This document shows, piece by piece, positions 1,191 through 21,652 of a DNA stretch of 64,000 bases. The translations under genes were made by a program, and so were the position numbers. Each line of letters starts with the position of its first letter. Within the stretch, counting starts at the first letter, position 1. The DNA comes from Bacteroidota bacterium (GTDB taxonomy: Bacteria; Bacteroidota; Bacteroidia; Bacteroidales; ML635J-15), in NCBI GenBank assembly GCA_029558535.1, contig JAKQEK010000197.1, positions 1-64,000 of the forward strand, in the 5' to 3' direction. A model generated the notes under the pieces. It worked only from the letters and a program-made list of their open reading frames with translations, was not told the origin of the DNA and ran no database searches.

Positions 1191-1315
1191 CACGCGGTCA
1201 TAAAACATTGGGGTTTAAGTGGTATGCCAAGTGCATCGCTCGCTGGCAAGGTTCTTATCGGTTGATAGGTTCGCAGCTCCGAACTCCCCAACGTTTCATA
1301 CCGCCAACGTTAGCA
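1185..1315 (+). other. attC site 1 (end of cassette A)
   Basis: The R'' core GCCTAAC (1185-1191) and R' core GTTAGCA (1309-1315) are 131 bp apart end to end. The inner arms CGGTCATAAAACATTGGGG and CCCCAACGTTTCATACCG are nearly complementary with a one-base bulge, as in folded bottom-strand attC. The preceding MFS stop codon is inside R''. R'' predicts that cassette A begins with GTTAGGC to the left of this window. Confidence 0.85.
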
Positions 1316-1468
1316 ACAAGTGGAAAAGAAATTCTGCCACCAAAATCTTGCTGCTTTTTTTTTAAAGAAAATGATTATTAAAAAATAATCCTCAATTAAA
1401 TTGAATTTATAGAGTAATGTTCTTTATCACCCAAAAATATTAATTTCACCTTTAGAAGACAGAAAACG

Positions 1469-2527: not shown

Positions 2528-2654
2528 CAGCACCTATATGTCATGCGGGGCAGCGGTTCTAGCATAACGCGCATTACTTTGAATTTAAATCGTGGGAACT
2601 CTGAAAAAGCAATTCATTGAATCCCCGCACAACACATAGCTGCAACCGTTACCA
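2522..2654 (+). other. attC site 2 (end of cassette B)
   Basis: The cores are TGCTAAC (2522-2528) and GTTACCA (2648-2654). Arms include ATGTCATGCGGGG on the left and CCCCGCACAACACATAGCTG on the right. R'' extended to GTTGCTAAC is the exact reverse complement of GTTAGCAAC at the cassette's left end (1309-1317). Its arms closely resemble those of attC 3 and attC 5. Confidence 0.87.
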
Positions 2655-2929
2655 GCAAGCGTAGAGAACGACACGACCACCAAAAAACGACCTTAACTCA
2701 ATAGACAATTTCGCTGTTCTTTGACACAAACCGTCCTGACTTTACCGACACTCAAGCCGACCCAAATGGTTTTAAAAATTTTTTCCCACCGCACTTTTTA
2801 AAAAATAATTTTATGCCTACCCACATTTTGCACATTTGGTTTTGCCCTGACACACAATGCCATCCCTTCAGCAAAACCAAAAGAGCAAAATTTTTCCAAC
2901 GCACTTGTTCAGATTATGAAAATAAATTG
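2655..2929. other. Non-coding leader of cassette C
   Basis: I see no convincing open frame here. The + strand is unusually rich in C and A (many CACA, CCGAC and CCCAC clusters) and contains A/T runs around 2770-2815. The non-coding tail of the same cassette at 9065-9317 has a similar texture. Confidence 0.5.
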
Positions 2930-2950
2930 TAATTTTGACAAAATTGTCAA
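2930..2950 (+). promoter_or_regulatory. Promoter -7 element with overlapping Xre operator
   Basis: TAATTTTG (2930-2937) fits the Bacteroidota -7 consensus TAnnTTTG. Overlapping it, TTGACAA (2935-2941) and TTGTCAA (2944-2950) form a perfect 7-base inverted repeat with a 2-base spacer. This is 19 bp upstream of the Xre start codon. A repressor bound here would cover the -7 element and the expected transcription start, the layout expected for autoregulation by a restriction-modification controller protein. There is no good TTG at the -33 distance (TTC is found). Confidence 0.55.
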
Positions 2951-2968
2951 GGCGAAAATTTCAAGGTA

Positions 2969-3295
2969 ATGAAAGAAACATTTGGAGAATACATTCACAA
3001 TTTACGAGTTGAGCACGGCTTAACTCTAACAAAACTTGCTGCTGCACTTGATATTGACCAATCAACGCTTTCCAAAATTGAAAATCAAAAACGCAATGTT
3101 CCAGAAGAAATACTTCCCAAACTTGCCAAAGTTTTCAAACTGGACATTCAGACACTTGAAAAGGAATTTTTCAGCGAAAAAATCGCTGAAATGATTTATC
3201 GAGTTCCCGACTCAACAGAATTGTTGACACTTGCAGAGGAAAAAGCAAAATACTACAGAGTATCAAAGGTTAAACAAGGAAATTTAAAATTTTAA
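2969..3295 (+). CDS. XRE-family regulator, probable restriction-modification controller
   Basis: This 108-aa cytoplasmic DNA-binding protein has an N-terminal helix-turn-helix of the Cro/C1 (XRE) type at residues about 5-60, with the typical run LTKLAAALDIDQSTLSKIEN. A short charged C-terminal tail follows. It is the first gene of a four-gene unit, ending 3 bp before the methyltransferase start. Small XRE proteins in this position (C proteins) time the expression of methyltransferase and nuclease when a restriction system enters a new host. The inverted repeat TTGACAA-AA-TTGTCAA just upstream is the likely binding site. The controller role is inferred from context. Confidence 0.85.
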   Translation: MKETFGEYIHNLRVEHGLTLTKLAAALDIDQSTLSKIENQKRNVPEEILPKLAKVFKLDIQTLEKEFFSEKIAEMIYRVPDSTELLTLAEEKAKYYRVSKVKQGNLKF

Positions 3296-3298
3296 AAA

Positions 3299-4216
3299 AT
3301 GGCGAAATCAATAGAACAATACTTAAACAAGGTTATTCAAGGCGACTGCTTAGAGGTAATGAAAAATATTCCGAGCAAATCCATTGATATGATTCTTTGT
3401 GATTTACCATACGGAACAACCCAAAACAAGTGGGATTCAGTAATTGACTTAGACCAGCTTTGGGAACATTATGAAAGAATAATCAAAGATGATGGAGCTA
3501 TAGCCTTGACTTCACAAGGACTTTTTACAGCTAAGTTGATTATGAGTAACGAGAAATTATTCAAATACAAAATCGTTTGGATTAAATCAAAATCAACAAA
3601 CTTCCTTAACGCTAAAAAACAACCACTTCGTAAACACGAAGACATTTGCCTTTTTTATAAAAAGCAACCGACATACAACGCTCAAATGACCAATGGCGAA
3701 GCGTATGACAAAGGAATAAGAAAAGACCAATACACAGGAAGTTACGGAGACTTTAAGCCGAGACACGTTAAAAGTAATGGAGAGAGATACCCTAATGATG
3801 TTGTTTGCTACGAAGAACAACCAATAGACGATTTTGTGTATGTGAAAACAGCAGAATCAGAAGGACCAGTTTTACATCCAACACAAAAACCAATTGAATT
3901 AGGAAGATACTTAATAAAGACCTTTACAAAACCTGGGGATGTTGTCCTTGACAATGCCTGTGGAAGCGGTAGCTTTTTACTTTCTGCAATTCTTGAAAAC
4001 AGACAATTCATAGGAATTGAAAAAAACGAAGATGTTTTACTTCATAAAGTAAAGCCAGTTGATTACATTAAAATCTGCACTGATAGGATTCACGAAACAC
4101 TTAAACGCAAGGAAATTGAAGAATCAACTTTAAGATTATTCAATGAGCCAATTGCAAAATATCATACATTAAACTATGAAAAGAAACGAGAGAGATTGGG
4201 CAGGACAACTTATTAG
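3299..4216 (+). CDS. Beta-class DNA N4/N6 amino-methyltransferase
   Basis: This 305-aa enzyme should transfer methyl from S-adenosylmethionine to an exocyclic amine of adenine or cytosine in a specific DNA site. The catalytic motif IV, DLPY (residues 35-38), comes first. A central region holds the likely target-recognition part, then HPTQKP (193-198) and the SAM-binding motif DNACGSGSF (218-226). The order IV - recognition - I is that of the beta class. The last 41 bp overlap the start of the following nuclease-methyltransferase gene in another frame, which implies translational coupling. It probably protects host DNA or supplies one strand specificity. Confidence 0.88.
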   Translation: MAKSIEQYLNKVIQGDCLEVMKNIPSKSIDMILCDLPYGTTQNKWDSVIDLDQLWEHYERIIKDDGAIALTSQGLFTAKLIMSNEKLFKYKIVWIKSKSTNFLNAKKQPLRKHEDICLFYKKQPTYNAQMTNGEAYDKGIRKDQYTGSYGDFKPRHVKSNGERYPNDVVCYEEQPIDDFVYVKTAESEGPVLHPTQKPIELGRYLIKTFTKPGDVVLDNACGSGSFLLSAILENRQFIGIEKNEDVLLHKVKPVDYIKICTDRIHETLKRKEIEESTLRLFNEPIAKYHTLNYEKKRERLGRTTY

Positions 4217-7082
4217 TTGGCTTCAAGAAGCAATTCGAGAAGGGCGAACTATTTTTGAAGATGCCACAAATGATACAGGAATTAAACTTGAATCAGGTAG
4301 AACTAAGTTTCCTGATGTCTTACTTTTTACAGATAAAATTTCTGGTATTGTTTTCAATGGATGGGAATTGAAATTTCCTGACACTAATGTTGATGATAAA
4401 GAAATGCTCAAAAATGCTTTAGAAAAAGCAGAGCGTTTAAAATCTGATTCTTTTGTGACTTGGAATGGAGCAGAAGCAATCATTTGGAAGATTGAAGTTG
4501 AAAACTACTCACTAGAATCCCTTAGTAAAATCAAAGTATATCCGAAAGAAAATAATATTAACAGTCGTGATGACCTAGCAGACCCAATAAAATTCAATCG
4601 TAATGAACCATTATTACGAGCAAGAGCAAATGAAATTCTTTATGACCTTGGACAGCTTTATGAAGTAGGCGAGTTAAAGCAAGCCATTAATATTACGGGA
4701 AATATAATTGAAGCTGTAATTGAAGCATCTGCTATCATTTTACCACAATTTCAACAAGCTATAATTACGGAAAAAGGGAATAATGCTGCTTTTAGGAGAG
4801 AATATAACCAATGGAAAATATATGAAAGTTCAACTTTGAAGATACTTGCTTCTTCATCACGAAGACCCGAAAACGTAATTGAAGAAGAAGTTTTAGCCAA
4901 ATTCACATTTTATAATTTGATTGGGAAAATTTTATTTTACCTCACTTTATCAGAGAATTTAACTGGTGAATTGGAAAGACTTAACATAGAAAATCCCCAA
5001 AATTTAAAAAACACACTTGATGAATATTTTGAGGAAGCTAAGAGAATTGACTACCAAGCTATATTCAAACCTTATTTTACTGATACCTTACCATTTTCTG
5101 ATATAGTAAATCAAACCATTTTTCAGCTAATTCGAAGATTTACTGAATTTGATTTCAGAATATTACCAACAAGTGTTATAGGAACAGTCCTTGAAAATCT
5201 TGTCCCAAAATCTGAAAAACAAAAATTTGGTCAATATTTTACATCAGAAACACTTGCAAACTTTGTTGCATTTCCTGCTATTCAAACAGCCAATGATTAT
5301 GTTTTTGACCCAACATCAGGAACTGGAACATTTCTAAATTCCTTTTACCAAATATTGAAATATCACGGTAAAAACAATCACTCAGAGATATTAAATCAAA
5401 TATGGGGCAATGATATATCACACTTTCCTGCAATTTTATCTGTAATAAATCTTTATAAACAAGATGTTGCAAGAACCGATAACTTTCCAAGAATTACCCG
5501 AGACGATTTTTTCAATCTGAATTCAGGAGATATGATTGTATTCCCTGATTCAAGAGATTACAGAAATCAAATAGAACAGCCAATACCTGAATTTGATGTT
5601 ATTGCAAGTAACTTTCCATTTATACAACAAGAAGATATTCCAAACGAAGTTTTGACAGCTTTTTTTAGAGAAAAATTTGAGGCTCGACAGCAAGCATTCT
5701 TACAGGATAGGTCTTTTAAAATTAACGAACGTTCAGATTATTTTACATACTGTATATACAATTCAATACGATTTCTTAAGAATGGTGGATTCTTATCAGC
5801 AATTACATCAAATGCGTGGTTGGGTAAAGAATATGGAATTCAGTTTAAAAAATTCCTACTTGATAACTTCTATGTAAAATACATTGTCCGAAGTAATGCT
5901 GAACATTGGTTTTCTGATTCCAAGGTTTCAACTATTTTTGTTGTCTTAGAGAAAGATTCAAAAAACGAACCCACAAAATTTATTACACTCAATTTTAAAC
6001 TTGAGGATGAACTAAATCAAGAAAATACACTAACCCAACTCGAGCAAATAGAAACCATTTACTCTGAAATTGACAATTGCAATTTTTTAAGAAATTTAAA
6101 CTGGCGAAAGGATGCCACCTTTGATGATTTATTTCATAAATTAGACGAGAGTATTACTGTATGTATAGTTCCCAAAGATAAACTCTTAGAGTCGCTTCAA
6201 ACACAAGAAAATTGGTCAAAATATTTTATTTCTTCTAATCTTTTCGAAAAGTTTGATAACTATACTACTGAATTATTCCCTTCAAAAATTGATGTTTTTC
6301 GTGGAGAAAGGACAGGTTGGAATCCAATGTTTATTGTTTCAGAGGATGATGTTGTTGACTCTGAAATTGAAGAAAACTTTCTAATTCCATATTTGAAAGA
6401 TTCATCCGAGTTAGATACTATTGATTTCTCTGGAAATTTAAATCATTATTTATTTGTTTGTGATAAACCAATTGATGAATTAAGAAGTGATTTTCAAGGC
6501 GCATATAATTGGATAAGAAGGTTTGAAAATCTACCAAATAAAAATCATACAAAAACTGTTTCTGAAGCAAATGCAAATCATAGACCTTTTTGGTATAGCC
6601 TTCGACCAAAGTCTGCAAATATTGTTACTTCGATTAATCCATATGAGAGGTTCTTTTTTAGTTTTTCAGAAAATAGTTTTATCCCTGACCAAAGGCTAGT
6701 TGTATTAAATGCAGAAAATGAAAATGACCTTCAAATAATTTCTGCTCTCCTAAATTCAGTCATAACTTTTCTATCAATTGAAATGAGGGGGACAGCTCGA
6801 AATTTAGGTGTTCTTGATTTAAATGCAAATGATTTCAAACGATTAAGAGTATTAAACCCCGATTTGCTAAACGAACAACAAACCTTAGAGATTTTAGAAT
6901 CATTTGAACCTTTAAAACAAAGACCCATAAGAACTATTTTTGAAGAAGTTGAAATGGCGGACAGAATAAATTTTGATAAAACAATTCTTCGCTGTTATGG
7001 AATTGAAGAATCTGTTTTGGAAAGCCTTTACCAAACACTTGTGTTAGCCGTAAATGACAGAGTAACAATGAAAGAAAGGTAA
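4176..7082 (+). CDS. Nuclease-methyltransferase fusion, type IIG-like restriction enzyme
   Basis: This is a 968-aa protein. Near the N-terminus, P46-D47 followed by E64-L-K66 has the spacing of a PD-(D/E)xK nuclease. In the middle, DPTSGTGTF (378-386) is SAM-binding motif I and NFPF (479-482) is motif IV, in the order of gamma-class N6-adenine methyltransferases. The remaining ~450 residues probably hold the target-recognition domain. A single chain with nuclease, methylase and specificity regions matches type IIG (Eco57I-like) enzymes. The ATG at 4176 overlaps the previous gene by 41 bp and is preferred because the DWAGQLISWLQEA segment follows at once. The next gene starts 8 bp downstream. 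The target site is unknown. Confidence 0.85.
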   Translation: MKRNERDWAGQLISWLQEAIREGRTIFEDATNDTGIKLESGRTKFPDVLLFTDKISGIVFNGWELKFPDTNVDDKEMLKNALEKAERLKSDSFVTWNGAEAIIWKIEVENYSLESLSKIKVYPKENNINSRDDLADPIKFNRNEPLLRARANEILYDLGQLYEVGELKQAINITGNIIEAVIEASAIILPQFQQAIITEKGNNAAFRREYNQWKIYESSTLKILASSSRRPENVIEEEVLAKFTFYNLIGKILFYLTLSENLTGELERLNIENPQNLKNTLDEYFEEAKRIDYQAIFKPYFTDTLPFSDIVNQTIFQLIRRFTEFDFRILPTSVIGTVLENLVPKSEKQKFGQYFTSETLANFVAFPAIQTANDYVFDPTSGTGTFLNSFYQILKYHGKNNHSEILNQIWGNDISHFPAILSVINLYKQDVARTDNFPRITRDDFFNLNSGDMIVFPDSRDYRNQIEQPIPEFDVIASNFPFIQQEDIPNEVLTAFFREKFEARQQAFLQDRSFKINERSDYFTYCIYNSIRFLKNGGFLSAITSNAWLGKEYGIQFKKFLLDNFYVKYIVRSNAEHWFSDSKVSTIFVVLEKDSKNEPTKFITLNFKLEDELNQENTLTQLEQIETIYSEIDNCNFLRNLNWRKDATFDDLFHKLDESITVCIVPKDKLLESLQTQENWSKYFISSNLFEKFDNYTTELFPSKIDVFRGERTGWNPMFIVSEDDVVDSEIEENFLIPYLKDSSELDTIDFSGNLNHYLFVCDKPIDELRSDFQGAYNWIRRFENLPNKNHTKTVSEANANHRPFWYSLRPKSANIVTSINPYERFFFSFSENSFIPDQRLVVLNAENENDLQIISALLNSVITFLSIEMRGTARNLGVLDLNANDFKRLRVLNPDLLNEQQTLEILESFEPLKQRPIRTIFEEVEMADRINFDKTILRCYGIEESVLESLYQTLVLAVNDRVTMKER

Positions 7083-7090
7083 AATTAACT

Positions 7091-9064
7091 ATGGCAAAAG
7101 AACTAGAAATAAAGGTTGAAAAAGACCACATCGAATCTTTAACAAAAGCTTCTGGAGTTACGGCTATATCAGAACTTATTTGGAATAGTTTAGATGCTGA
7201 TGCAACAAATATCGAGATTGAATATAAAACAAATAACCTGAGTGTTACTCAAATAAAAATAATAGATGATGGACACGGTATGGATTTTCATTCTGCTGAA
7301 ACAGCATTTGAAAGCTTAGGAGGTTCAAATAAGAAAAACAGAACTAGAAGTCCAGGCGACAGGGTGTTACACGGAAAAGAAGGTAAAGGACGATTAAAAG
7401 CATTCGCACTTGGACACTTGATTACTTTTAAAAGCACTATTATTTCAAACGGATCAGGAAAATATTTTGAAATTAAACTTGACCGAAATGAAATTAAAAG
7501 ACCTACTATAAGTGACCTGAAAACTTTAAAGAAAGGTGAAGGGAAAAATGGAGTAGAAGTTTTAATCAACAATGTAGATGATAAAAACGCTAATGCTGTT
7601 TTCAGAGATAATGGAATAAAGGATTTAGAAGAAAAATTTGCTGTTTATTATATGTCTTATCCTGTTTTCAGGATAGCAATTAATGGCAATGATTTAGATT
7701 TTACAAGTTGCATCAAAAATCAATATGAAGAGGATATAACTTTTGAAATTGAACAATCAAATGGTGAAATAGAAAAAATACCTTTCAAGTTTAAAGTAAT
7801 TGAATGGACTCGTCAGTGCGACAAGAAGTTATACTATTGTAGCGAAAAAGGAATTTCATTTTTAGAAGACCAATTAGGAGTTAGAACTGGAAATTATCAA
7901 ATAACTGTTCATATTCTTTCAGACTTTATTGAGCAATTACATCGTAAAAGCGACTTAGTCGTAGGAAACCTAAATGATATAATTAGAGATGCAACAAACC
8001 TAGCAAAAGACATTGCTAGAAAATATATTAGGAACAGAAAGCACGAGGAAGCAAAAAACTTCATTGCGGAATTAAAACGTGAGGGTATTTACCCTTTTCC
8101 AAATACAGCCCCAAAGGATAAAGTAGAAGAAGCGGAACGACAAGTATTTGACATTGTAGCTCTTCAACTAAATGAGCATATGGCGGGCTTTAGCGAACAA
8201 GACAAAAAAGGAAAGCATCTTACTTTGACATTGATTAAAGAAGTGATGCAGAATGATACAAATGGATTGCAAAAAATACTTGAGGAAGTTATAAATCTAC
8301 CATTAAACAAAAGAGAAGAACTTACAGAAATCCTCGAAAAGACCTCCCTTTCAACAATTGTTGATGCAATGAAAGAAATTACTGATAGGTTAAGGACTGT
8401 TTATGAATTACGGCTTCTGCTTTTTGATGAGAACTACAAAGACAAAATCCTTGAAAGAAAACATTTGCACAAGATTGTAAAAAATGAAACTTGGATTTTT
8501 GGTGATGATTACACCTACGGTGCAGACGATATAAATTTAAAGAATGTTCTTAAAGCATATTTGAAACATCTTGAAAGGGAAAATTTTGAAGAAATTGTTG
8601 AAAGTGGAGATAACAGCAATCTAAATGACATTCCTGACATTTGTTTATGGAAGCAATACAGTATGGGACAATCTGGATATTTTCAAAATTTGGTAATTGA
8701 GCTTAAACGTCCGAATAAAAAAGTTGGAACAAAGGAATTAGAACAGGTAAAAGGTTATGCCCGTGCTGTAGCTAAAGACGACAGGTTTCCAAAAGAAAAA
8801 ACCAAATGGATATTTATCTTATTGGTAACCGATATGAATGATGATGCAATCAGCGAATGCAATCAGAAAGACAGAAATTTTGGACATATCGATACGAAAG
8901 ATAATTATGACGTTTATGTTAAAAAATGGGGTGACTTGTTAAATGAAGCGGATGCAAGACATCAATATCTAAAAACCAAACTGAACTACAACATTGAAGA
9001 GAATGAAGAGGGTATTAAAATATTGAAATCAAAACATAGTGAATATTTACCTGAAGAAATATAA
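7091..9064 (+). CDS. MORC/MutL-like GHKL ATPase with C-terminal PD-(D/E)xK nuclease
   Basis: This is a 657-aa protein. All Bergerat-fold ATPase motifs are visible: E28..N32..D35 (ELIWNSLDADA), DDGHGM (59-64) and GKEGKG (95-100) followed by RLKAFALG. Near the C-terminus, D516, then E537-L-K539 in VIELKRP, then ELEQVKGYA, follows the D-ExK-Q pattern of restriction-type nucleases. GHKL ATPases of this kind linked to restriction-modification genes were described by Iyer, Abhiman and Aravind as prokaryotic relatives of eukaryotic MORC. The gene lies 8 bp after the type IIG-like gene, so it is probably a subunit or back-up effector of the same system. Its role as an ATP-gated DNA clamp with nuclease activity is inferred. 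Confidence 0.82.
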   Translation: MAKELEIKVEKDHIESLTKASGVTAISELIWNSLDADATNIEIEYKTNNLSVTQIKIIDDGHGMDFHSAETAFESLGGSNKKNRTRSPGDRVLHGKEGKGRLKAFALGHLITFKSTIISNGSGKYFEIKLDRNEIKRPTISDLKTLKKGEGKNGVEVLINNVDDKNANAVFRDNGIKDLEEKFAVYYMSYPVFRIAINGNDLDFTSCIKNQYEEDITFEIEQSNGEIEKIPFKFKVIEWTRQCDKKLYYCSEKGISFLEDQLGVRTGNYQITVHILSDFIEQLHRKSDLVVGNLNDIIRDATNLAKDIARKYIRNRKHEEAKNFIAELKREGIYPFPNTAPKDKVEEAERQVFDIVALQLNEHMAGFSEQDKKGKHLTLTLIKEVMQNDTNGLQKILEEVINLPLNKREELTEILEKTSLSTIVDAMKEITDRLRTVYELRLLLFDENYKDKILERKHLHKIVKNETWIFGDDYTYGADDINLKNVLKAYLKHLERENFEEIVESGDNSNLNDIPDICLWKQYSMGQSGYFQNLVIELKRPNKKVGTKELEQVKGYARAVAKDDRFPKEKTKWIFILLVTDMNDDAISECNQKDRNFGHIDTKDNYDVYVKKWGDLLNEADARHQYLKTKLNYNIEENEEGIKILKSKHSEYLPEEI

Positions 9065-9317
9065 GAAAACAATGGAGGAAAGTAATCCATCACACAGGTG
9101 TAAGCACATTTACAAACCGCTACAAGCCCACCCGCAGACCAAAGTTTGCAAAAGAGCTTACACCTCTCCCACCCGAAAAAAAATTATTTTTTAAAATTTC
9201 CTTCCCTTCAAAAATTTTTAAAACCGCCACCCACAGCCGACACAAAACCAACCCGACAATGACAGCGAAACCCACAGTAGACAAGGACGACAGCAACTCG
9301 ACAGACAGAACGCCAGC
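9065..9317. other. Non-coding tail of cassette C with an inverted repeat
   Basis: This is a C/A-rich stretch without a credible gene. AGGTGTAAGC (9096-9105) and GCTTACACCT (9156-9165) are perfect inverted copies 50 bases apart. No attC core motif accompanies them, so I treat them as a possible transcript end structure or repeat, not an attC. Confidence 0.45.
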
Positions 9318-9449
9318 TGGTAACAGCACCTATAAGCAATTGGCGGTTCAGAGGTTAAATGAAGTGCAGTTTTTCAATCAAACTTTCGTGCAGGTTGACA
9401 GTTTTGTGCTTCGAAATCGCCAACTTCTTATAGCTGCAAAACGTTATAG
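9318..9449 (+). other. attC site 3 (end of cassette C)
   Basis: The cores are TGGTAAC (9318-9324) and GTTATAG (9443-9449), with arms CACCTATAAGCAATTGGCG and CGCCAACTTCTTATAGCTG. GCTGGTAAC is the exact reverse complement of GTTACCAGC at the left end of the cassette (2648-2656). This shows that the whole 6.8-kb restriction unit moves as one cassette. Confidence 0.87.
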
Positions 9450-9493
9450 CCAACCCTAAAAAAAATCAGTATTTTTATTAAACTTTAGCAAAT

Positions 9494-9632
9494 ATGAAAA
9501 TTAGAGGAATACTCTTATAAAGAAAAATTTAACCTTGACAAACTTATTACTGCTGACAACAAAAACGACAGTATAATACAAATTGATAATTTCATTCGTA
9601 AATTTAACGAAGTCGCTTCAGCCTATTTTTAG
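9494..9632 (+). pseudogene. Short frameshifted coding remnant
   Basis: An ATG at 9494 leads after two codons into an A-run. Removing one A gives an open frame of about 45 codons ending at TAG 9630-9632, with protein-like composition (EKFNLDKLITADNKND, then IDNFIRKFNEVASAYF). As it stands, the ATG frame stops after eight codons. It is either a decayed small gene at the start of cassette D or a fragment of a longer lost gene. I do not recognise it. Confidence 0.3.
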
Positions 9633-9660
9633 AAACTAGAGGCTCTTCTGAATATTTATT

Positions 9661-9690
9661 TTGATATATGAAATAAAATTTTTATATTTG
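9661..9690 (+). promoter_or_regulatory. Consensus Bacteroidota promoter for the PARIS-like pair
   Basis: TTG (9661-9663), a spacer of exactly 19 bp and TATATTTG (9683-9690) give a perfect match to TTG-N19-TAnnTTTG. Transcription from about 9697 would leave a leader of roughly 200 nt before the ATPase gene, including the palindrome at 9813-9838. Confidence 0.65.
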
Positions 9691-9812
9691 ATTTTTCTTA
9701 ACTATATATTTTAAATTAAAAACTAGCATTATCCGATGATAAACGGCAACAAACAATTATGTGTCACGATATCAGCACTTTGGCGAACTTTACAAGTTTT
9801 GTATAAGGCTGA

Positions 9813-9838
9813 ACTAAACGCAACTAGTTGCGTTTAGT
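9813..9838. repeat. Perfect 26-bp palindrome upstream of the ATPase gene
   Basis: ACTAAACGCAACT followed at once by its exact reverse complement forms a palindrome with no loop. It ends 56 bp before the ATG at 9895 and lies within the predicted leader transcript. It could be a dimer operator or an RNA structure. A 13-bp perfect palindrome arm is far beyond chance for this short interval. Confidence 0.7.
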
Positions 9839-9894
9839 GCGCTGTCATGCCTCATGCTAAGAAACAAATCGTAACTTAATTAAACTTTATACAA

Positions 9895-11310
9895 ATGAAA
9901 TTAAACAATTTTACTGCAAAAAAGGTACATGGCTACCTTGACTATGACATTGAGTTTTTTACTGAATTGACATTTTTAATTGGAATTAATGGTTCAGGAA
10001 AAACTAGTGCATTGAAATTAATACTTGGTATTATTTCTCCTTCATTTCAATATTTAAATCAGATTGAATATGAGTATGCTGAACTAGTTTGTTCAACTAA
10101 TGAGCAAGAAAGAGATATCATTATTACTGCCACCCAAAACAAAAAGGAAGGCACATTTTCATTAGCTTTTAAATCACCAAAAATCACAATAGAACCAAAA
10201 ATATTTCCTAGGTATGTAAGACTAGATAATGAAAACTTTGATGGAGAAGAAATTTCTGTTATTGAACAAAACATAAAAGAGCAATTTGAGATACATGAAA
10301 TAACTAGACAAATTAGAGAGCTTGCTACCCCTAAATTTCTTGGATTGGATAGAAAAATTTATGAAGGGATAAATCTAGATATGCGTTTTCGTAATAGAAG
10401 AATATATGGACACCAAAAAACAAAAAAACGTTTTATGGAAGGCTACATTGGTTCATCTGCTATCGATAGTAGTCTTGAAGATGTGCAATATTTGATTTTT
10501 GAATATTTCAGAAAAATAGCTTATGAACAACCAAAAATAAGTGAAGAGTTTAAAAGAAAAATATTTCAGCTTTCTTTTAAGTTTAATGACGACCACAATT
10601 TGGAATCTATTCCGGCCGACAATAAAGGTCTAATAGAGAAAAAAGAAAAAGTTTTAACAGCAATCAGAAATCTAGATATTGATTTTCTTGACTATTCTGC
10701 AAATGCTTTTTTTGATAAAATGTCAACACTTATTACAAAAAGTCATGAAATTGATTTGGCAAAACAAAGCAATAAAAATGACCTAAAAGGAAATAATACT
10801 AATCCCTTAGATCAGGAGGATTTTAAAATATTAATGAAATGGATCAATAACAGTTCTCAAATAAAAAGGATTGATGAAATAATTAATTATAGCCAGACAT
10901 ATCAAGAAAAAATAGTGGAATTAAGATCTCCTATTAAAAGATTAGAAAGTATCACCTCTAAATTTCTTATGGAAGGAGGGAAACAAATCAAAGTTGCAAA
11001 GGATGGAGAAATTAAGGTTAAGTTAAAGAATGGAAATGAGGCGAACGTATTTGAACTATCTTCAGGGGAAAAACAGATTATTATAATGATTGCACATTTG
11101 ATATTTGAAGAAGACCAAAGATCATCAGGAGTATTTATTATTGATGAACCTGAGCTTTCATTACATATTGCATGGCAAGAAATATTTGTTGATTCTATTA
11201 TCGAAGCCAGCCCTAAAACTCAATTCATACTTGCAACACACTCACCTTCAATAATTTCCAAGGTGAAGAGAGAACAATTCTGTCAGGACTTAAATAAATT
11301 AAATTCTTAA
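9895..11310 (+). CDS. AAA/ABC-type ATPase, AriA-like subunit of a PARIS-like system
   Basis: This is a 471-aa ATPase of the SMC/RecF-like type. Walker A is GINGSGKT (30-37), the ABC signature is LSSGE (388-392), and Walker B is VFIIDEP (413-419) followed by ELSLH. The N-terminus (MKLNNFTAKKVHGYLDYDIE) is typical of AAA_15/AAA_21 proteins. The next gene, 5 bp downstream, encodes a DUF4435/TOPRIM-like protein. An AAA_15 ATPase with a DUF4435 partner is the composition of PARIS, in which AriA senses phage anti-restriction proteins and releases AriB. Lengths fit that pair. Another OLD-like two-gene defence system is the main alternative. The gene has its own promoter and palindrome upstream. Confidence 0.75.
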   Translation: MKLNNFTAKKVHGYLDYDIEFFTELTFLIGINGSGKTSALKLILGIISPSFQYLNQIEYEYAELVCSTNEQERDIIITATQNKKEGTFSLAFKSPKITIEPKIFPRYVRLDNENFDGEEISVIEQNIKEQFEIHEITRQIRELATPKFLGLDRKIYEGINLDMRFRNRRIYGHQKTKKRFMEGYIGSSAIDSSLEDVQYLIFEYFRKIAYEQPKISEEFKRKIFQLSFKFNDDHNLESIPADNKGLIEKKEKVLTAIRNLDIDFLDYSANAFFDKMSTLITKSHEIDLAKQSNKNDLKGNNTNPLDQEDFKILMKWINNSSQIKRIDEIINYSQTYQEKIVELRSPIKRLESITSKFLMEGGKQIKVAKDGEIKVKLKNGNEANVFELSSGEKQIIIMIAHLIFEEDQRSSGVFIIDEPELSLHIAWQEIFVDSIIEASPKTQFILATHSPSIISKVKREQFCQDLNKLNS

Positions 11311-11315
11311 ATCAT

Positions 11316-12167
11316 ATGCTAGAATATACTGACGAATCTAAAAGACTTGTGTCAACTTTTCTTGCATACAGAAACGATATTGATATTTATACTGAGGACG
11401 AAGAAAAGGATAAAGAATTTTACAAAGTTTTATTCTCACGTCTTATTAAACCTGAGATAAAAATAAATGATATTACACCATTGGGATGTAAAGATAAGGT
11501 AATAGAAAGATGTAAAAATGAGCCTAAATCTGACCGTAAGAAACTTTTTATTGTTGATGGAGATATTGCCTTTGTCAACGGCAATATTGTTGAGCTTGAA
11601 AACCTTTTTGTACTTGATAGATATTGTATAGAAAACTTTCTTATTGACAAAGAATCGACTTGCAACTTTGTTTATATGAATTGTGGGACAAAATCTAAAG
11701 AACAACTATCTGCGGATATTGAATTTGAAAATTGGCTTAGCAATTATTCCGAATCACTTATTCAACTATTCATTCATTTTGCTATTGTGAACTGCCATGG
11801 TGGGAAATTCACACTTTTTAATGCAAACAAATATCACTCAAATATTGGCGGAAATTATACATTTAATGTAGCTCTAGTAAACCAAGATATTGCTATTCTC
11901 AAGGAAGAAATAATAGAAAAATATGGAGTGACGAGTTATACAGAGAAGTACAATGAACTTAATGCTAAGTGGACAAATAATATAGATAATTTTTTGACGA
12001 TAGTTTCAGGAAAAGATTACCTGATTCCTATTTTACTAATTAAGACACAACATTTTAAAGCATCAAAATCTTTACCCTCCATTGAGGAAGTGAAAATTAA
12101 TTTGGTTCAATATTTTGACACAAATAATCTTAAAAAACTTAAAGAAGTAATAGAATTATCACTTTAA
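11316..12167 (+). CDS. DUF4435/TOPRIM-like protein, AriB-like effector
   Basis: This is a 283-aa soluble protein. The early acidic motif IYTEDEEKDKEFY, with a TOPRIM-type glutamate at about residue 27, and LFIVDGD with D81-x-D83, then ENLFVLDRYCIENF, match the DUF4435 pattern. In PARIS, the DUF4435 protein AriB is the toxic effector, a nuclease reported to act on tRNA. That activity is not proven for this protein. The gene starts 5 bp after the ATPase and ends inside the left end of the degenerate attC 4. It is the last gene of cassette D. Confidence 0.7.
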   Translation: MLEYTDESKRLVSTFLAYRNDIDIYTEDEEKDKEFYKVLFSRLIKPEIKINDITPLGCKDKVIERCKNEPKSDRKKLFIVDGDIAFVNGNIVELENLFVLDRYCIENFLIDKESTCNFVYMNCGTKSKEQLSADIEFENWLSNYSESLIQLFIHFAIVNCHGGKFTLFNANKYHSNIGGNYTFNVALVNQDIAILKEEIIEKYGVTSYTEKYNELNAKWTNNIDNFLTIVSGKDYLIPILLIKTQHFKASKSLPSIEEVKINLVQYFDTNNLKKLKEVIELSL

Positions 12168-12310
12168 AAGCACGAAGGCATATCAAGCGGTGTATTTAAC
12201 TGGCTTTAGTCGTTTTTCATTGAAAGTGAAGTAGGTATATTTAAAATTGTATATTTGTGAAACGGCAGTGGGTAAAAAACGCCAGCAAAACACACCGCCA
12301 CACGTTAGGG
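12162..12310 (+). other. Degenerate (fossil) attC site 4 inside cassette D
   Basis: The right half is a good attC end, with CGCCAGCAAAACACACCGCC then GTTAGGG (12304-12310), pairing with GCGGTGTATTTAACTGGC on the left. The expected left core is lost: the best candidate, CTTTAAA, is not a core. GTTAGGG is not complemented by any downstream R''. The cassette opened at 9444 is instead closed by attC 5, so this site appears to be inactive. Confidence 0.6.
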
Positions 12311-12687
12311 GAAATTAAAATTTCAAATGATGAATGCCTTGATTTACTAATGATAAAATTAGATTGGACTAGTTTTCCATCAATTCCTCAGACCATTTTA
12401 CTCATATAATCATTACTATTATAAAAACTATCAAGGCTAAAAAAACAGTAAATATTTTACAACTCGCTATTGTCTGGATATTTCGGTGATACTGCCTCCC
12501 CTCTTATAAATATTCAAAGAACAATGAACCTGATAAAAAACGGTTGAAAACATCCTAGTCGTTGCAACTGAAGTTTGGGTAAAACTTGATCCAACGTTTT
12601 TTTATTATAATTATAATTTGAACGCTTTAAACATTGATTATATAATAGCAAATAAAGCCGTCTAGTATGATGCATACAAAGGGCAGG
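12311..12687 (+). pseudogene. Possible decayed gene in cassette D
   Basis: No intact gene is present. Several short protein-like frames occur one after another in different frames: 19 codons beginning MIKLDWTSFPSIPQTILL near 12350, and about 42 open codons (TVENILVVATEVWVKLDP onward) ending near 12665. This looks like a coding sequence broken by several frameshifts, but the family is not recognisable. Confidence 0.25.
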
Positions 12688-12819
12688 CTATAACAGCACC
12701 TATATGTCATGCGGGGGTTTGGAGCGACTCTGACCGGAATTACAAAAACGAAAAATCGAGCGAAACTGAAAATTCAAAGCATTTAAAACCCGCACGCCAC
12801 ATAGCTGCAGCCGTTAGCA
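12688..12819 (+). other. attC site 5 (end of cassette D)
   Basis: The cores are CTATAAC (12688-12694) and GTTAGCA (12813-12819), with arms CACCTATATGTCATGCGGG and CCCGCACGCCACATAGCTG. GGCTATAAC is the exact reverse complement of GTTATAGCC at 9443-9451. The cassette therefore runs from attC 3 to here and spans attC 4. Confidence 0.86.
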
Positions 12820-13164
12820 CCCATTTAGCCGGCTATGAAAATTTTTCGTTTCGCATGCTGTTAGGTTCGGTTAAATTTCGTCAAATTGTTCTCCGGGCAT
12901 GTTCCTGAAATACTATTATTACTGTGATTACCATGCTTGTCGCCCGTAATACCGTGGTTTGTCATAAAGTTTGCTTTGACTGTGCCCGAGACTTTCGAAA
13001 GAAATATTTGCCCGACCTAAACCCGGAATGAAGTATTTCCGAAGATCGTGCGTAAAATAAAATTAAAATTATATCAGAAAAAAGAAAAAGGAAAATGTGA
13101 GGCGTGCACATCAGCAAACTTTTCGCCAAACCACTAAAGAATGATAGCCGTCTCGAAAACGGGT
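12820..13164. other. Body of cassette E, no clear gene
   Basis: This cassette interior of about 345 bp has no frame I can defend as a full gene. It has only the short cysteine-rich frames described separately and an AT-rich tail around 13045-13095. It may encode a small protein or RNA, or be decayed. Confidence 0.5.
12933..13031 (+). CDS. Candidate small cysteine-rich peptide (low confidence)
   Basis: A 32-codon frame starting MLVARNTVVCHKVCFD and ending KKYLPDLNPE has a C-x2-H/C-x3-C-type spacing like half of a zinc ribbon. In the neighbouring frame, an ATG at 12899 gives MFLKYYYYCDYHACRP and a stop at 12949. A single frameshift near 12945 would join both into a zinc-ribbon-like protein of about 45 residues. 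It may be a decayed gene. It is the only protein-like signal in cassette E. Confidence 0.25.
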   Translation: MLVARNTVVCHKVCFDCARDFRKKYLPDLNPE

Positions 13165-13295
13165 TGCTAACAAAGGCTTAGCACAATGGCGGGATAAATA
13201 ATTGTAAAAGCATTCGCTTTTTTATTTATCTTTGCATTGGCTCGAATCTGAATCGCGTTGAAATCCGCCACAGTGCCAAGCCTCAGACGTTAGGC
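13165..13295 (+). other. attC site 6 (end of cassette E)
   Basis: The cores are TGCTAAC (13165-13171) and GTTAGGC (13289-13295), with arms AAAGGCTTAGCACAATGGCG and CGCCACAGTGCCAAGCCT. R'' is the reverse complement of GTTAGCA at 12813. The arms are nearly the same as in attC 7, so cassettes E and F share an attC family. Confidence 0.87.
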
Positions 13296-13323
13296 TCAAG
13301 TGGTGCGGCAGCCCTATAAAATA

Positions 13324-13501
13324 CTGAAAACTGAAAGTTTTAACTTCAACACCCTGAAAAAAGAAACCGAATGAAAATTCTCAGGAAATATTTTGAAAAA
13401 ACCGAAGAATTTTAGAAAATCCGATCTAAAAGAATCGGCTGAAAGCCGAATCCTGAAAGAAAATTAACTTGCCTGAAAAAATTGCTGAAAACGAGCTGAA
13501 A
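13324..13501. repeat. Cluster of CTGAAA motifs upstream of the toxin-antitoxin pair
   Basis: The hexamer CTGAAA occurs eight times on the + strand (13324, 13331, 13354, 13439, 13453, 13473, 13485, 13496) at irregular spacing. No gene is visible in the stretch 13296-13654. The meaning is unknown. Confidence 0.5.
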
Positions 13502-13654
13502 AGAAACAAACAAAAACCGAAACCTGACAAGAGGGTTTCAAGTTTCAATTTTAGTAAATGAAGCGGTTCGAAAGAGTCGTTTATAAAGCAATGAAAATGA
13601 AAGAAAAGAAAAATCTATTTTCTAAACAATTCCTGAAGATATTACGTTAATTAA

Positions 13655-13684
13655 TTGACTGAATTGTAATATTTTGTAACTTTG
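13655..13684 (+). promoter_or_regulatory. Consensus Bacteroidota promoter of the toxin-antitoxin pair
   Basis: TTG (13655-13657), a 19-bp spacer and TAACTTTG (13677-13684) match TTG-N19-TAnnTTTG exactly. The ATG at 13700 would lie only about nine bases after the expected transcription start, so the mRNA would be nearly leaderless. Confidence 0.65.
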
Positions 13685-13699
13685 TAAAAAAGTAATGAC

Positions 13700-13921
13700 A
13701 TGGATATACTTGCAAAAAAATATCAACTGATTGAATGGATTACCAACATTAGCGACAGCAATTTACTTGACAAACTAATGAAAATCGCTGAAACTACTGA
13801 CTGGTGGAACGAAATTAGTGAGACTGAGAGAAAGTCAATTGAAAAAGGACTGAAAGACATAGAGGAAAACAGAGTTTTTGACCATTCTGAAGTTAGAAAA
13901 AAGTATGAAAAATATATCTAA
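13700..13921 (+). CDS. Antitoxin of a ParE/RelE-type module
   Basis: This is a 73-aa acidic protein (MDILAKKYQLIEWITNISDS; WWNEISETERKSIEKGL; FDHSEVRKKYEKYI at the end). It has the shape of the addiction-module antitoxins common in Bacteroidota: a short N-terminal part and a C-terminal helix that wraps the toxin. Its last 17 bp overlap the toxin gene, so the two are translationally coupled. No classic DNA-binding motif is obvious. It is expected to neutralise the downstream toxin and to stabilise the cassette. Confidence 0.78.
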   Translation: MDILAKKYQLIEWITNISDSNLLDKLMKIAETTDWWNEISETERKSIEKGLKDIEENRVFDHSEVRKKYEKYI

Positions 13922-14201
13922 AGTTATTTGGTCTGCTGAAGCGGTTGAAAATCTTGAAAAAATAATTGCTTATCTCGAAGCAAACTGGACTGAAAAAGAA
14001 ATTAGGAAATTCGTAAAGAAACTTGAAAAACAAATTACTGTAATAAAAAAACAGCCTCTCTCCTTTCCAAAATCTCAACTTATTGAAGCTAGAAAATCAG
14101 TTTTATCTAAACATACTACAATTTTTTACAAAGTTTGCGAAGACGCTATCTTCATAGTAACAATATTTGACAACAGACAGAATCCTGAAAACTTGAAATA
14201 A
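13905..14201 (+). CDS. ParE/RelE-superfamily toxin
   Basis: This 98-aa protein begins MKNISKVIWSAEAVENLEKI and continues with AYLEANWTEKEIRKFVKKLE, the helical hairpin plus beta-sheet layout of ParE/RelE toxins. I use the ATG at 13905 rather than 13878, because the conserved part starts there and the overlap with the antitoxin is then a usual 17 bp. RelE members cleave mRNA at the ribosome and ParE members poison gyrase; the sequence alone does not tell which. Toxin-antitoxin cassettes are known to stabilise large integrons. The pair fills cassette F. Confidence 0.82.
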   Translation: MKNISKVIWSAEAVENLEKIIAYLEANWTEKEIRKFVKKLEKQITVIKKQPLSFPKSQLIEARKSVLSKHTTIFYKVCEDAIFIVTIFDNRQNPENLK

Positions 14202-14277
14202 AGCTGAAAGAATCGGCAAGTTTATTATCTGAAGGATTTTACGGTGTTTAACGGACTGACGGTCTGAAACCAATAGA

Positions 14278-14408
14278 GCCTAACAAAGGCTTAGCACAAT
14301 AGCGGGTTAAATTTTATAAAAACATTCGTTTTTTTATTTAACTTTGCATTGGTTTGAAACTGAAGCGTCTCGAAATCCGCTACTGTGCCAAGCCGCAAAA
14401 CGTTATGC
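14278..14408 (+). other. attC site 7 (end of cassette F)
   Basis: The cores are GCCTAAC (14278-14284) and GTTATGC (14402-14408), with arms AAAGGCTTAGCACAATAGCG and CGCTACTGTGCCAAGCC. GAGCCTAAC is the exact reverse complement of GTTAGGCTC at 13289-13297, which closes the toxin-antitoxin cassette. Confidence 0.87.
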
Positions 14409-14456
14409 AAATTGACAAACATATTGCAATAATTATTTAATTTTAAACTAACCATT

Positions 14457-14960
14457 ATGAAATTTTCTGAAATAGTTAAAAAAAATTCTTGGTCAAGTAT
14501 AAAAAGTTTGTTTTTACAACTATATCCTGATGAAAAGCCAAATATTGATGAATATGAAAAAGTATTTAATAAAATAAAATTATTAAAACCTCATAAAAGT
14601 GATATGCTAATTTCAATTACCCGAGAAATGGAAGACAATAAATATTATTATGATGTATCGGGATATCTTCCTAAGAAAAAAAGGAAAAATAAACTTGATG
14701 ACTTTATTTCTTATGGGTTGCAACACACCTCCTGGAACGAGTGGCTTGGGATGAATATTTATGATAAGTCAGGTTATGTATGTTCAGAAATAGAAGTAAT
14801 CTGTCATTGTTTGTGGGAAATGACTTATAGTAGTTTTGATCAAAATGAAATTGAAAATATTTCAAAAATAATAGGGGGTAGAATTGAGAAAATTGATAAA
14901 ATAACTGAGAATGAAAAAAGGAAGAAAGATAGAATTGCACGAGAAAAAAATTTAAATTAG
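14457..14960 (+). CDS. Cassette protein of unknown function (DUF6557-like)
   Basis: This is a 167-aa soluble protein. The central motif TSWNEWLGMNIYDKSGY followed by EIEVICHCLWEMTY resembles, from memory, small proteins annotated DUF6557; I cannot confirm that here. The C-terminus is a highly charged helix rich in K, E and R. There is no signal peptide or membrane segment. It is the only gene of cassette G. TTG (14411-14413) is followed after 19 bp by TATTTAAT, only a weak promoter match. Function unknown. Confidence 0.7.
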   Translation: MKFSEIVKKNSWSSIKSLFLQLYPDEKPNIDEYEKVFNKIKLLKPHKSDMLISITREMEDNKYYYDVSGYLPKKKRKNKLDDFISYGLQHTSWNEWLGMNIYDKSGYVCSEIEVICHCLWEMTYSSFDQNEIENISKIIGGRIEKIDKITENEKRKKDRIAREKNLN

Positions 14961-15044
14961 TAAAACAAAAAAAGAAAAACATTGATTTAAGTGACTTAGA
15001 ATAATTTATTACAATAAATACAAAGCATTATTGCACAAACAAAA

Positions 15045-15153
15045 CGCTAACACGGCGCGTAGCGGCATGCCACACGAATTAAAGGCTAGTGCTACGCACA
15101 TCGCCATGATATAGTTGTGTGTGGCACGTCCGCCAGCGCCGAAACCGTTAGCG
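15045..15153 (+). other. attC site 8, last of the array
   Basis: The cores are CGCTAAC (15045-15051) and GTTAGCG (15147-15153). Arms CGGCGCGTAGCGGCATGCCA and GTGTGGCACGTCCGCCAGCG pair well. It is shorter (109 bp) and more GC-rich than the others. Its R'' does not match the left end of cassette G (GTTATGC) but matches its own R', unlike the preceding sites. No further attC is seen to the right. Confidence 0.8.
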
Positions 15154-15556
15154 CCAAGCCTGACCCGTCCTGAAATATGTATACACTAAAAAAAGTTTAT
15201 CTGTATAAAAATTATATAAATAAAAAGTTTGTAGGTTCGCTTTTTGTGAAATGTTGAAAATTCTAAAAAAGGCAATTTCGAAAAACTTGAATAAAAATTC
15301 TAAAAGCAGAACCGACAAAAAAGTATTTGCTGAGCCCAAACCGTGATTTTCCCTACCTCTTTAGAATGATTGACAAGTCTGTCAAATCTAAAATAATCAA
15401 CGATATCCGAATAGCAAACTTAGTCATTGGCTAAATAATTATTTGTATAATATTTTTTTTTTTATTTATTTCGTTTCGATTTAAAACTGATGCATATTGT
15501 AAAATTTGCTTCAGGGAAAAAGCCTCAAAAAGTTAAAAACTATAAAAGTCTAAACT
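15154..15556. other. Right flank of the array, no gene seen
   Basis: This is AT-rich sequence with no credible frame, inverted repeat or attC. It separates the last attC from the first T9SS gene and probably holds the latter's promoter, although no exact TTG-N19-TAnnTTTG is visible. Confidence 0.5.
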
Positions 15557-17578
15557 ATGAAAACAATTTTATTTTCACTTTTGTTTGCAATACTTGTGTT
15601 AACACACTTTAAGTCAAATTCTCAAAATTACGAAACCTATCAAATGATATTTGCAAATGACCCGGCGCTGTTTGATGGCTTTGGTAATAACATTTCGGTA
15701 TATGAAAACACTCTTGTTATCGCAGCTAGTTCTGATGATGATTTAGGAGAAAATTCCGGCTCAGTTTACGTTTTTGAATTTAACGAAGGTAACTGGGAAC
15801 AAAAACAAAAACTTTTGCAACCCGATGGCGCTGCAAACGATTATTTTGGCAATTCTATCTCAATTTTTGGCGATTATCTTTTTATAGGTTCATATTACGA
15901 CGACAATGCAAATGAAGATAACGGCTCTGTTTATGTTTTCCATAATAATAACGGCATATGGGAGTATGTACAAAAATTAGAGTCGGATGAATCAAGTATT
16001 TACGACTATTTTGGCGAAACTGTTTATGCTTACGAAGATTTTGTTTTTATAAGTAGCCCTTATTCTGATTTTGGAGATGTTGACAGAGGAGTTGTTTTTG
16101 TCTTTAAAAGAAATGGTACTATTTGGGAACAGCATCAAAAAATTTGTCCCGGAGATATCAGTAGTAATGAAGAATTCGGCAAATCCATTAGTGTAAATGG
16201 AAATTATATGCTGATCGGAGCTTCAGAAGATAATATTGATGGATACAGTGGCTACAAACATGGCTCGGCATATGTGTATTCTTATGATGGGGAATTTTGG
16301 AATTATAATACTAAATTTACTGATATTACTCCTGAAAGTTATGGCCGTTTTGGGGCTTCTGTTTGTATATCTAATAATTATGGCTTAATTACAAACACGG
16401 GATATAGAACAATCACAGTCATAAAATTTGATGAAGGCACTTGGTCGTTTCACCAGAAATTAGATGCCCCCGAAGGAAACTATGATGATCACTTTGGGCG
16501 TTTTGCAACCAATATTGATGACAATACCATATACATTGGAGCACCATACAGCAATACTTTGGTATCAGGTGGTGGTGCAGTTGCTGTTTATACAAACAAT
16601 CAAGGAACATTTGAACTTACAGGAAATATAGAAAATTCAGATATTTCAGCTGGTGACTATTTCGGAAGTTCCTTTTCAAAACATAACGATAAATTGCTTA
16701 TTGGAGCAGGAGGCCGTTATATTGATGATCCTTATATTGACAATGTCGGAGCTGTTTTTTATATAGGAGAAGCTTTACCTGTTGAAATAAACGCTCACCC
16801 ACAAAATCAGGAAAATGTATGTGTAGGTGTACCAATCAATTTCGAAATAGCCGGCAATAATATAGCAGGATTTCAGTGGCAAGTGACATCAAATGGTACA
16901 GACTGGACTAATGTAACAGATAACGAAGATTATGTAGGTTCGAATACAAACACCTTGACAGTCAATGTAAATCAAAATATGGATCAATACCAATTCCATT
17001 GTATTGTTTCCAATAGTTTAGGAGAACAAACAAGTGATGATGCTGTTTTAACAATAGAAAATATTCCGCCTACAATAACTTGTGCCGAAAATCAGATAAT
17101 TGATCTCGAACAAGGGGAGACATTTTTATATATTGAAGGAACAGGCTTGGACGCTACAGCTGATGACAATTGCCAAATAGCTATTATAACAAACGATTAT
17201 ACAAACACAGAATCTATCGCTGACGCAACTTTTAACCCCGGCACTTATACAATTACTTGGACAGCAATCGATAACGCAGGTAATCAAGCAGAATGTATTA
17301 TTGATATTACCGTTAATGCTTTTGTAGGTATCGAAACATTAGAAAATAACGTAATTAAAATTTATCCTAATCCTACAAACAAAATACTGAACTTGGATTT
17401 TGAAAACCTAGCTATTCAAGAATTAGTAATTTCTGACATTACAGGAAAAAAGATAATCGAAAGAAATGACATTCAACAAAATCAGAAAATCGATTTATCA
17501 AATTTAGAAAATGGAATTTATTTTATTAAAATTCAACATGACAATCAATTATTTACAACAAAAATAATTAAAGAGTAG
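15557..17578 (+). CDS. Secreted T9SS beta-propeller protein with FG-GAP-like repeats
   Basis: This is a 673-aa protein with a signal peptide at residues 1-23 (ends SNSQ). Seven repeats of the type FG-x-S-x5-G-x2-L-x-IGA (for example FGNSISIFGDYLFIGS and FGKSISVNGNYMLIGA) fill residues about 30-410, matching a seven-bladed integrin-like propeller. An Ig-like domain (about 420-515) and a HYR-like domain (about 515-600, with FNPGTYTITWTAIDNAGNQ) follow. The C-terminus has the T9SS type A sorting domain beginning IKIYPNPTNKILNLDF and ending TTKIIKE. It is likely surface-attached or released; the ligand is unknown. It starts just right of the cassette array. Confidence 0.88.
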   Translation: MKTILFSLLFAILVLTHFKSNSQNYETYQMIFANDPALFDGFGNNISVYENTLVIAASSDDDLGENSGSVYVFEFNEGNWEQKQKLLQPDGAANDYFGNSISIFGDYLFIGSYYDDNANEDNGSVYVFHNNNGIWEYVQKLESDESSIYDYFGETVYAYEDFVFISSPYSDFGDVDRGVVFVFKRNGTIWEQHQKICPGDISSNEEFGKSISVNGNYMLIGASEDNIDGYSGYKHGSAYVYSYDGEFWNYNTKFTDITPESYGRFGASVCISNNYGLITNTGYRTITVIKFDEGTWSFHQKLDAPEGNYDDHFGRFATNIDDNTIYIGAPYSNTLVSGGGAVAVYTNNQGTFELTGNIENSDISAGDYFGSSFSKHNDKLLIGAGGRYIDDPYIDNVGAVFYIGEALPVEINAHPQNQENVCVGVPINFEIAGNNIAGFQWQVTSNGTDWTNVTDNEDYVGSNTNTLTVNVNQNMDQYQFHCIVSNSLGEQTSDDAVLTIENIPPTITCAENQIIDLEQGETFLYIEGTGLDATADDNCQIAIITNDYTNTESIADATFNPGTYTITWTAIDNAGNQAECIIDITVNAFVGIETLENNVIKIYPNPTNKILNLDFENLAIQELVISDITGKKIIERNDIQQNQKIDLSNLENGIYFIKIQHDNQLFTTKIIKE

Positions 17579-21622: not shown

Positions 21623-21652
21623 GCCATTTTAAATATTTAAAATGGCTTTTTT
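21623..21652 (+). terminator. Rho-independent terminator after the vanW-like gene
   Basis: A perfect 24-bp palindrome, GCCATTTTAAAT followed by its reverse complement (21623-21646), is followed by a run of T. It lies 38 bp after the stop codon. Confidence 0.8.

Follow-up and report, generated by a model that had tools for sequence, protein, structure and literature searches.

A perfect 26-bp palindrome in front of an AriA/AriB-like defence gene pair is very probably the integrase-binding part of an attI-type integron site, one that received the gene pair as a cassette. It lies at 9813-9838 of the window (the whole stretch of DNA analysed, 64,000 nucleotides from a Bacteroidota bacterium), near the end of the predicted leader of the ATPase gene. 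A sequence-only reading of the same DNA had offered three options for the palindrome: an operator for a dimeric repressor, an RNA hairpin that gates translation, or a recombination remnant. The last of these is supported here, and can be specified as an integron attI-type site by a core shared with attI sites in other genomes and by a 10-nt spacing from that core to the cassette junction. We call the site attI-type, and an orphan, because no integrase adjoins it.

Results

The palindrome and its rarity

The sequence ACTAAACGCAACTAGTTGCGTTTAGT at 9813-9838 is a perfect palindrome of 26 bp, loopless and without strand, exactly as the sequence-only reading had described it. It consists of one arm present twice, head to head (ACTAAACGCAA / TTGCGTTTAGT), and is read here as a putative attI-type integron site. 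Its length is beyond chance: in 200 dinucleotide shuffles of the window, 26 bp was never reached, 24 bp was reached in two, and the median longest palindrome was 18 bp. It occurs once in the window with up to three mismatches allowed, and its central 20-mer occurs once, with up to two mismatches, in the host's own genome (a fragmented assembly of 513 contigs, 88% complete). The 16-bp core of the palindrome (9818-9833) is the part held in common with the attI sites at four other loci (L002, L119, L120 and L121, described below). A spacer, GCGCT (9839-9843, forward strand), leads from the palindrome to the cassette junction, with 10 nt from the end of the core to that junction. The window contains a second perfect palindrome, of 24 bp, GCCATTTTAAATATTTAAAATGGC, between open reading frames at 21623-21646.

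An integron cassette array

An integron cassette opens with bases complementary to the left box of its own attC. A simple attC finder (a hairpin whose left box ends in AAC and whose right junction is GTT) marked seven attC-like sites in window 1-15150. The junctions at their ends are 1309, 2648, 9443, 12813, 13289, 14402 and 15147; matches elsewhere in the window that scored the same or lower were left out. All seven are on the forward strand. They are 1183-1308 (cassette with an MFS gene), 2520-2647 (cassette 1309-2647), 9316-9442 (cassette 2648-9442, with a type IIG restriction-modification set and other genes), 12686-12812 (cassette X, by box pairing as well as by the finder), 13163-13288 (cassette 12813-13288), 14276-14401 (cassette 13289-14401, with a ParE-like toxin) and 15043-15146, the last found in the array. 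Complementarity of cassette start to own box is 9/9 for the starts at 1309, 2648, 9443 and 13289 and 8/9 for 12813; the start at 14402 fails, at 4/9. Thus five of the six testable cassettes match at 8 or 9 of 9 positions, while among all pairings of a box with a GTT start in window 1-16000 only 10 of 1631 reach 8/9, true ones included. Because the starts are complementary to their own attC boxes, the array is, on this sequence criterion, an integron cassette array. Its cargo comprises the MFS gene, the type IIG restriction-modification set, the AriA/AriB pair, the ParE-like toxin and a DUF6557 gene.

No integrase was found in the window. The array resembles a CALIN (at least two attC sites with no nearby integrase) in its seven attC-like sites and the absence of an integrase from the window, a classification limited by the array running off the contig at position 1, so that a platform may lie further out. 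It differs from a CALIN in holding an attI-type site and in being open at the contig end.

A probable cassette inside a cassette

Cassette X (9443-12812, forward strand) starts with GTTATAGCC, complementary at 9/9 positions to its own box GGCTATAAC (12686-12694), which lies past the AriA/AriB-like genes. Within X sits a predicted inner cassette carrying those genes (9844-12303, forward strand). This unit has a degenerate attC-like hairpin of its own (12176-12303, forward strand; arms 12187-12207 and 12278-12298), followed by the next junction, GTTAGGGG, at 12304. The attC finder missed this hairpin because its left box, AGGCATATC, ends ATC and not AAC. The cassette start is GTCATGCCT, and the start expected from its attC is GATATGCCT, a match at 7/9. 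Within 9443-9895, the best partner of the box is position 9844 at 7/9, the next best reaching 6; lengthening the box to 11 nt leaves three positions equal at 7, and at 13 nt another place scores 8 against 7 at 9844. Position 9844 was predicted separately by the 10-nt spacing taken from the attI comparison. Because the box partner and this independent prediction point to the same position, the most likely reading of AriA/AriB (9844-12303) is that of a cassette which entered cassette X immediately after the palindrome. The left junction is GTC instead of GTT, which together with the weakened attC suggests a cassette that is partly frozen. A search for a gene running across the empty cassette X found only open frames of 42-57 residues, and no credible integrase remnant was found upstream of the palindrome.

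The genes of this inner unit encode an AriA-like AAA ATPase of the PARIS type (9895-11310, forward strand; Pfam AAA_21, 3.8e-23; PADLOC AriA, 3.3e-28) and an AriB-like DUF4435 protein (11316-12167, forward strand; Pfam DUF4435, 9.4e-20; PADLOC AriB, 2.8e-19). Named by these Pfam and PADLOC matches, the pair is AriA/AriB-like and of PARIS type, with the AriA ATPase and AriB both present; locus L042 has a pair of like kind. The ATPase finds a match in 2 of 395 phylum genomes and 5 of 385 class genomes, the host's own included each time, and the AriA proteins at four other homologous loci are 81, 47, 46 and 31% identical to it. A plasmid search gave two Lactococcus relatives of AriA, at 29%. L042, which has the 47% AriA homologue together with AriB, adjoins a transposase pair that, judged by eye on its reading frames, is IS3-like; given these neighbours, the AriA/AriB pair may travel by other means too.

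The same core at integrase-adjoining attI sites

An exact search of a GTDB contig collection with the 20-mer of the palindrome returned one stretch, L002, on a contig of a Bacteroidota MAG. It has two palindromes with this core, placed between a tyrosine recombinase gene and the first gene cassette, and the junction of that cassette, GTTATGCG, matches the box of the attC that follows. The 16-bp core is absent from the 394 other genomes of the phylum sample and present in 3 of the 384 other genomes of the class sample (G691, G532 and G584); a reversed control pattern matched 1 of 385 genomes. A search across the family, with two mismatches allowed, had no match in 30 other genomes. A phage link was considered and rejected: the 20-mer has no match in viral contigs, and the 16-mer core occurs once, by chance, inside a phage gene (L004).

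In L002, in G584 (L120) and in G532 (L121), the core follows immediately on the 3' side of an integron-type integrase gene. G584 and G532 belong to the same genus; they have the junction GTTACCTGC, which matches GCAGGTAAC, the box of the attC that comes next. The integrase of G532 (L121:4083-4984) is split into two frames, and its near relative in G584 is one longer frame. Behind the core of G691 (L119) stand the 10 nt also seen in L002, then GTTAGCACC and one gene cassette for an 808-aa protein, with a box GGTGCTAAC just after the gene (site and cassette together, L119:9202-11870); the protein has no Pfam or PADLOC match. Directly upstream of this core lies an aminopeptidase gene, not an integrase, and no relative of the tested integrases occurs in the 14.6 kb of L119. 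Elsewhere in G691, contigs C171 (L123) and C174 (L122) carry pieces of an L002-like integrase, 49 and 75% identical, and no core palindrome follows the C-terminal piece.

The distance from core to junction is exactly 10 nt in the window, L002, L119, L120 and L121. Outside the window, the junctions after the core are GTT, and each of them is complementary to the left box of the attC that follows it. The length of the palindrome around the core varies: 26 bp in the window, 30 and 20 bp in L002, 20 bp in L119, and 18 bp in L120 and L121.

Inverted repeats at attI sites across Bacteroidota

A search with the L002 integrase found a relative at 1e-40 in 116 of 395 phylum genomes (the host's own included), relatives at this threshold including Xer-type recombinases without cassettes. 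The 93 integrase loci examined gave 79 readable enzymes (14 were missed by the pattern), 72 of them with at least 300 nt downstream (7 were dropped). At 33 of these 72 loci the junction is verified by a match of its first bases to the following attC box, 30 at 8/8 and 3 at 7/8. These 33 entered the inverted-repeat test, with L060, L076 and L077 left out (junction more than 235 nt from the stop codon) and L108-L110 included. Twelve of the 33, many of which are mutually related, have an inverted repeat scoring at least 6 centred 15-20 nt before the GTT, against a mean of 0.73 and a maximum of 3 in 60 shuffles; the neighbouring bin (-26 to -21) holds 7 inverted repeats and all remaining bins 0-2. 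An earlier, stricter score gave 6/33 at 5 or more in bin -19 to -14, against 0-3 in other bins. Because the repeat sequences differ between integrons, what is kept, in this comparison of sequences, is the position of the inverted repeat and not its sequence. A like layout, without a verified junction, is seen for example at C113 of the host's own genome, L007, L009, L021 and L034; in longer stretches, the L009 junction was confirmed at 7/8 only (L104), and the junctions of L007, L014, L021 and L034 (L103, L105-L107) were not. These Bacteroidota relatives (L002, L005, L120 and the verified loci) have an integrase without the IntI-specific insertion; attI sits at the 3' end of its gene and faces in the cassette direction.

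The integrases

The host's own genome encodes one integron-type integrase with an attI layout, on another contig (C113); in the catalytic part it shares 48% identity with the L002 enzyme. Its attI reads TATAACCTTACC-AAA-GGTAAGGTTATA, then 5 nt, then GTTATGG (junction unverified), a palindrome different from that of the window. The L002 enzyme matches IntI4 in PDB on either side of a gap, and the distance between the GLRxSE and LRHS motifs is 93-98 residues in all 33 junction-verified enzymes, against 136 in IntI4 (2A3V). The insertion in the catalytic domain that marks the classical IntI is absent from 33/33 verified enzymes, and all four enzymes tested against TIGR02249 score below its cut-off (208-220, against 265). 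Passages of PMC7790495 state that IntI enzymes gained single-strand recombination via the I2 helix and that deletion of I2 inactivates IntI1.

Discussion

How the site would work

A tyrosine recombinase binds a pair of arms with a short spacer between them. Under the attI reading, two copies of one arm would stand head to head just upstream of the crossover point, and the core site would comprise the second arm, the G^TT junction and a short spacer. In that arrangement the palindrome's right half would take the left arm position of the core site, and its left half would be a second copy facing it. An integrase of the L002 or G584 kind would bind this site and recombine it with the attC of a circular cassette; in this way the AriA/AriB-like cassette (9844-12303) would have been inserted into an empty site of the form palindrome-GCGCT-GTTAGGGG. 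As to the source of the site, we infer: it looks foreign to the host, or its platform has been lost, because the attI of the host's own integrase has a different repeat. Today the site would mainly be a passive stretch of the AriA leader, and the palindrome may have a secondary regulatory use alongside its attI role.

This reading, comparative in all its evidence, draws on the fixed 10-nt distance from core to junction at all five loci, on the core sequence common to integrase-adjoining attI sites (L002, L120 and L121), on GTCATGCCT at that distance past the core being the best partner (7/9) of the AriA/AriB attC box within 9443-9895, on the box matches of five of the six testable array cassettes, and on inverted repeats occurring at this place in 12/33 verified integrons while the AriA/AriB homologues are without the palindrome (0/4). 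Against it stand the missing integrase next to the site in the window, the different palindrome at the attI of the host's one integron-type integrase, the left junction GTC where GTT is expected, and the weakened attC box, whose match at 9844 is neither unique nor best at box lengths of 11 and 13 nt. The window site also lacks the TATAAA-like stretch that is frequent among the 33 attI sites (L120 and L121 are likewise without it) and the second, upstream palindrome of L002. A strong inverted repeat is found in only 12 of the 33 verified sites, and the core is found once by chance in L004.

Alternative explanations

One alternative is an operator, at which a dimeric repressor binds the palindrome and silences the defence pair. 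Its classic look is what is seen here, a perfect palindrome of even length with a possible promoter on one side and an ATG on the other, and a helix-turn-helix gene is present at 2969-3295. The palindrome is, however, not kept with the pair. No perfect palindrome of at least 14 bp occurs at any of the four homologous loci (0/4, about 1.5 kb searched on each side), and the window resembles the 81% homologue at the DNA level from 9880 to 12159 only, a stretch beginning 15 nt before the ATG and ending just before the end of the second gene. The sequence-only reading had named absence of the palindrome from close homologues as grounds for dropping its idea, and for an operator of the pair this absence is what was found; its suggestion that the genes are held silent drew no support from the analysis. 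The helix-turn-helix gene, moreover, is part of the preceding cassette, 6.5 kb off, and the same core stands at integron junctions before unrelated genes, which makes the operator quite improbable. Another alternative is an RNA hairpin gating translation or stability of the ariA message. The Bacteroidota promoter form is TTG-N19-TAnnTTTG, and a candidate of this form lies at 9661-9690 on the forward strand (TTG at 9661-9663, a 19-nt gap, then TATATTTG at 9683-9690), with a sigma-70-type match of 10/12 at 9661-9688 in a promoter scan. The consensus promoter claimed earlier was thus located, but matches of this kind are not clearly commoner than in shuffles (28 promoter-like sites in 5 kb, against 20.2, sd 4.6), and because of this the promoter and the leader of about 200 nt remain a guess, with the transcription start unproven. 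Folding of the palindrome strand does give a stem of 11 bp closed by a 4-nt loop, 56 nt ahead of the ATG, and the folded region has a z-score of -3.1, so the hairpin is physically possible; but every perfect palindrome folds so, no Rfam family matches in 9000-15600, and the hairpin is not present in homologous leaders, nor tied in any way to the pair. We regard it as highly improbable. Because the homologue test and the Rfam search were negative, operator and RNA switch are both rejected as the main reading.

The palindrome might instead be the stem of an unusual short attC, belonging to a cassette 9443-9843, and not an attI at all. By eye, GGCTGAAC just before the palindrome resembles the GGCTATAAC expected for the 9443 start; it pairs with GTCATGCC, however, at 5/8 positions only (again by eye), the perfect partner of that start (9/9) sits at 12686-12694, and no such box is found at L002, L119, L120 or L121, three of which follow an integrase gene. 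This explanation is quite improbable. That the palindrome arose by chance, or is functionless debris of a mobile element, could appeal to the core in one phage gene and to the single match of the reversed control in 385 genomes. Such an origin is hardly credible when L002 and all three other class-sample genomes have the core at a cassette junction with equal spacing and when no shuffle reached 26 bp.

Relation to known systems

The attI of class 1 and other integrons lies at the platform end of the array, with a G^TT crossover, integrase arms upstream and the first cassette directly after; part of this picture is set out in passages of PMC9668308. The window site would have the same arms upstream and a cassette directly behind, with GTC at its left junction and GTTAGGGG at the junction of the empty site; unlike a class 1-type attI, it is a perfect head-to-head palindrome, has no adjoining integrase and lies inside another cassette. 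Bacteroidota are listed among the phyla with integrons in parts of PMC9668308 and PMC8618304, and attI sites are described in a section of PMC9024848 as poorly known outside class 1, with few integrons reported in Bacteroidetes. A search by title and abstract, with most subscription papers and preprints outside its range, found no description of a palindromic or orphan attI in Bacteroidota.

The nearest precedent for a piece of attI inside an array is the Delta-attI cassettes, reported as functional in class 1 and 2 integrons in the portions of PMC12901181 that treat them. In both cases a piece of attI lies within the array, away from the integrase. Theirs still recombines and replaces the attC at the cassette end, whereas the window site is internal to cassette X, which keeps its attC (12686-12812), and is of a type different from the attI of the host's own integrase.

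Sites of cassette insertion outside integrons (attG) have little sequence beyond the crossover. The window site resembles them in that a cassette has been inserted away from the platform, but it has a 16-bp core and a spacing in common with attI sites. PARIS, for its part, has mostly been discussed on phage satellites and other elements; the cargo here is the same, an AAA ATPase plus a DUF4435 protein, while the carrier is best read as an integron cassette with a degenerate attC.

Putative stand-alone sites are seen in two cases, the window (with AriA/AriB) and G691 (with the aminopeptidase gene upstream and the 808-aa cassette). It is conceivable, if on balance doubtful, that Bacteroidota hold stand-alone attI sites as landing pads for cassettes in trans, served by an enzyme without the IntI-specific insertion, which is regarded as necessary for recombining attC sites in their folded single-strand form.

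Implications

The palindrome leads to a readable rule for attI in Bacteroidota: look for an inverted repeat whose centre lies 15-20 nt ahead of the cassette junction. The attI sites of this phylum are hardly described, and the rule helps to find them. A PARIS-type defence pair is very probably carried here as an integron cassette. The relatives' integrases stand at well-formed arrays without the insertion that defines IntI, which makes their handling of attC hairpins a directly testable question. The orphan site itself suggests that attI sites can move, or stay behind, without their integrase.
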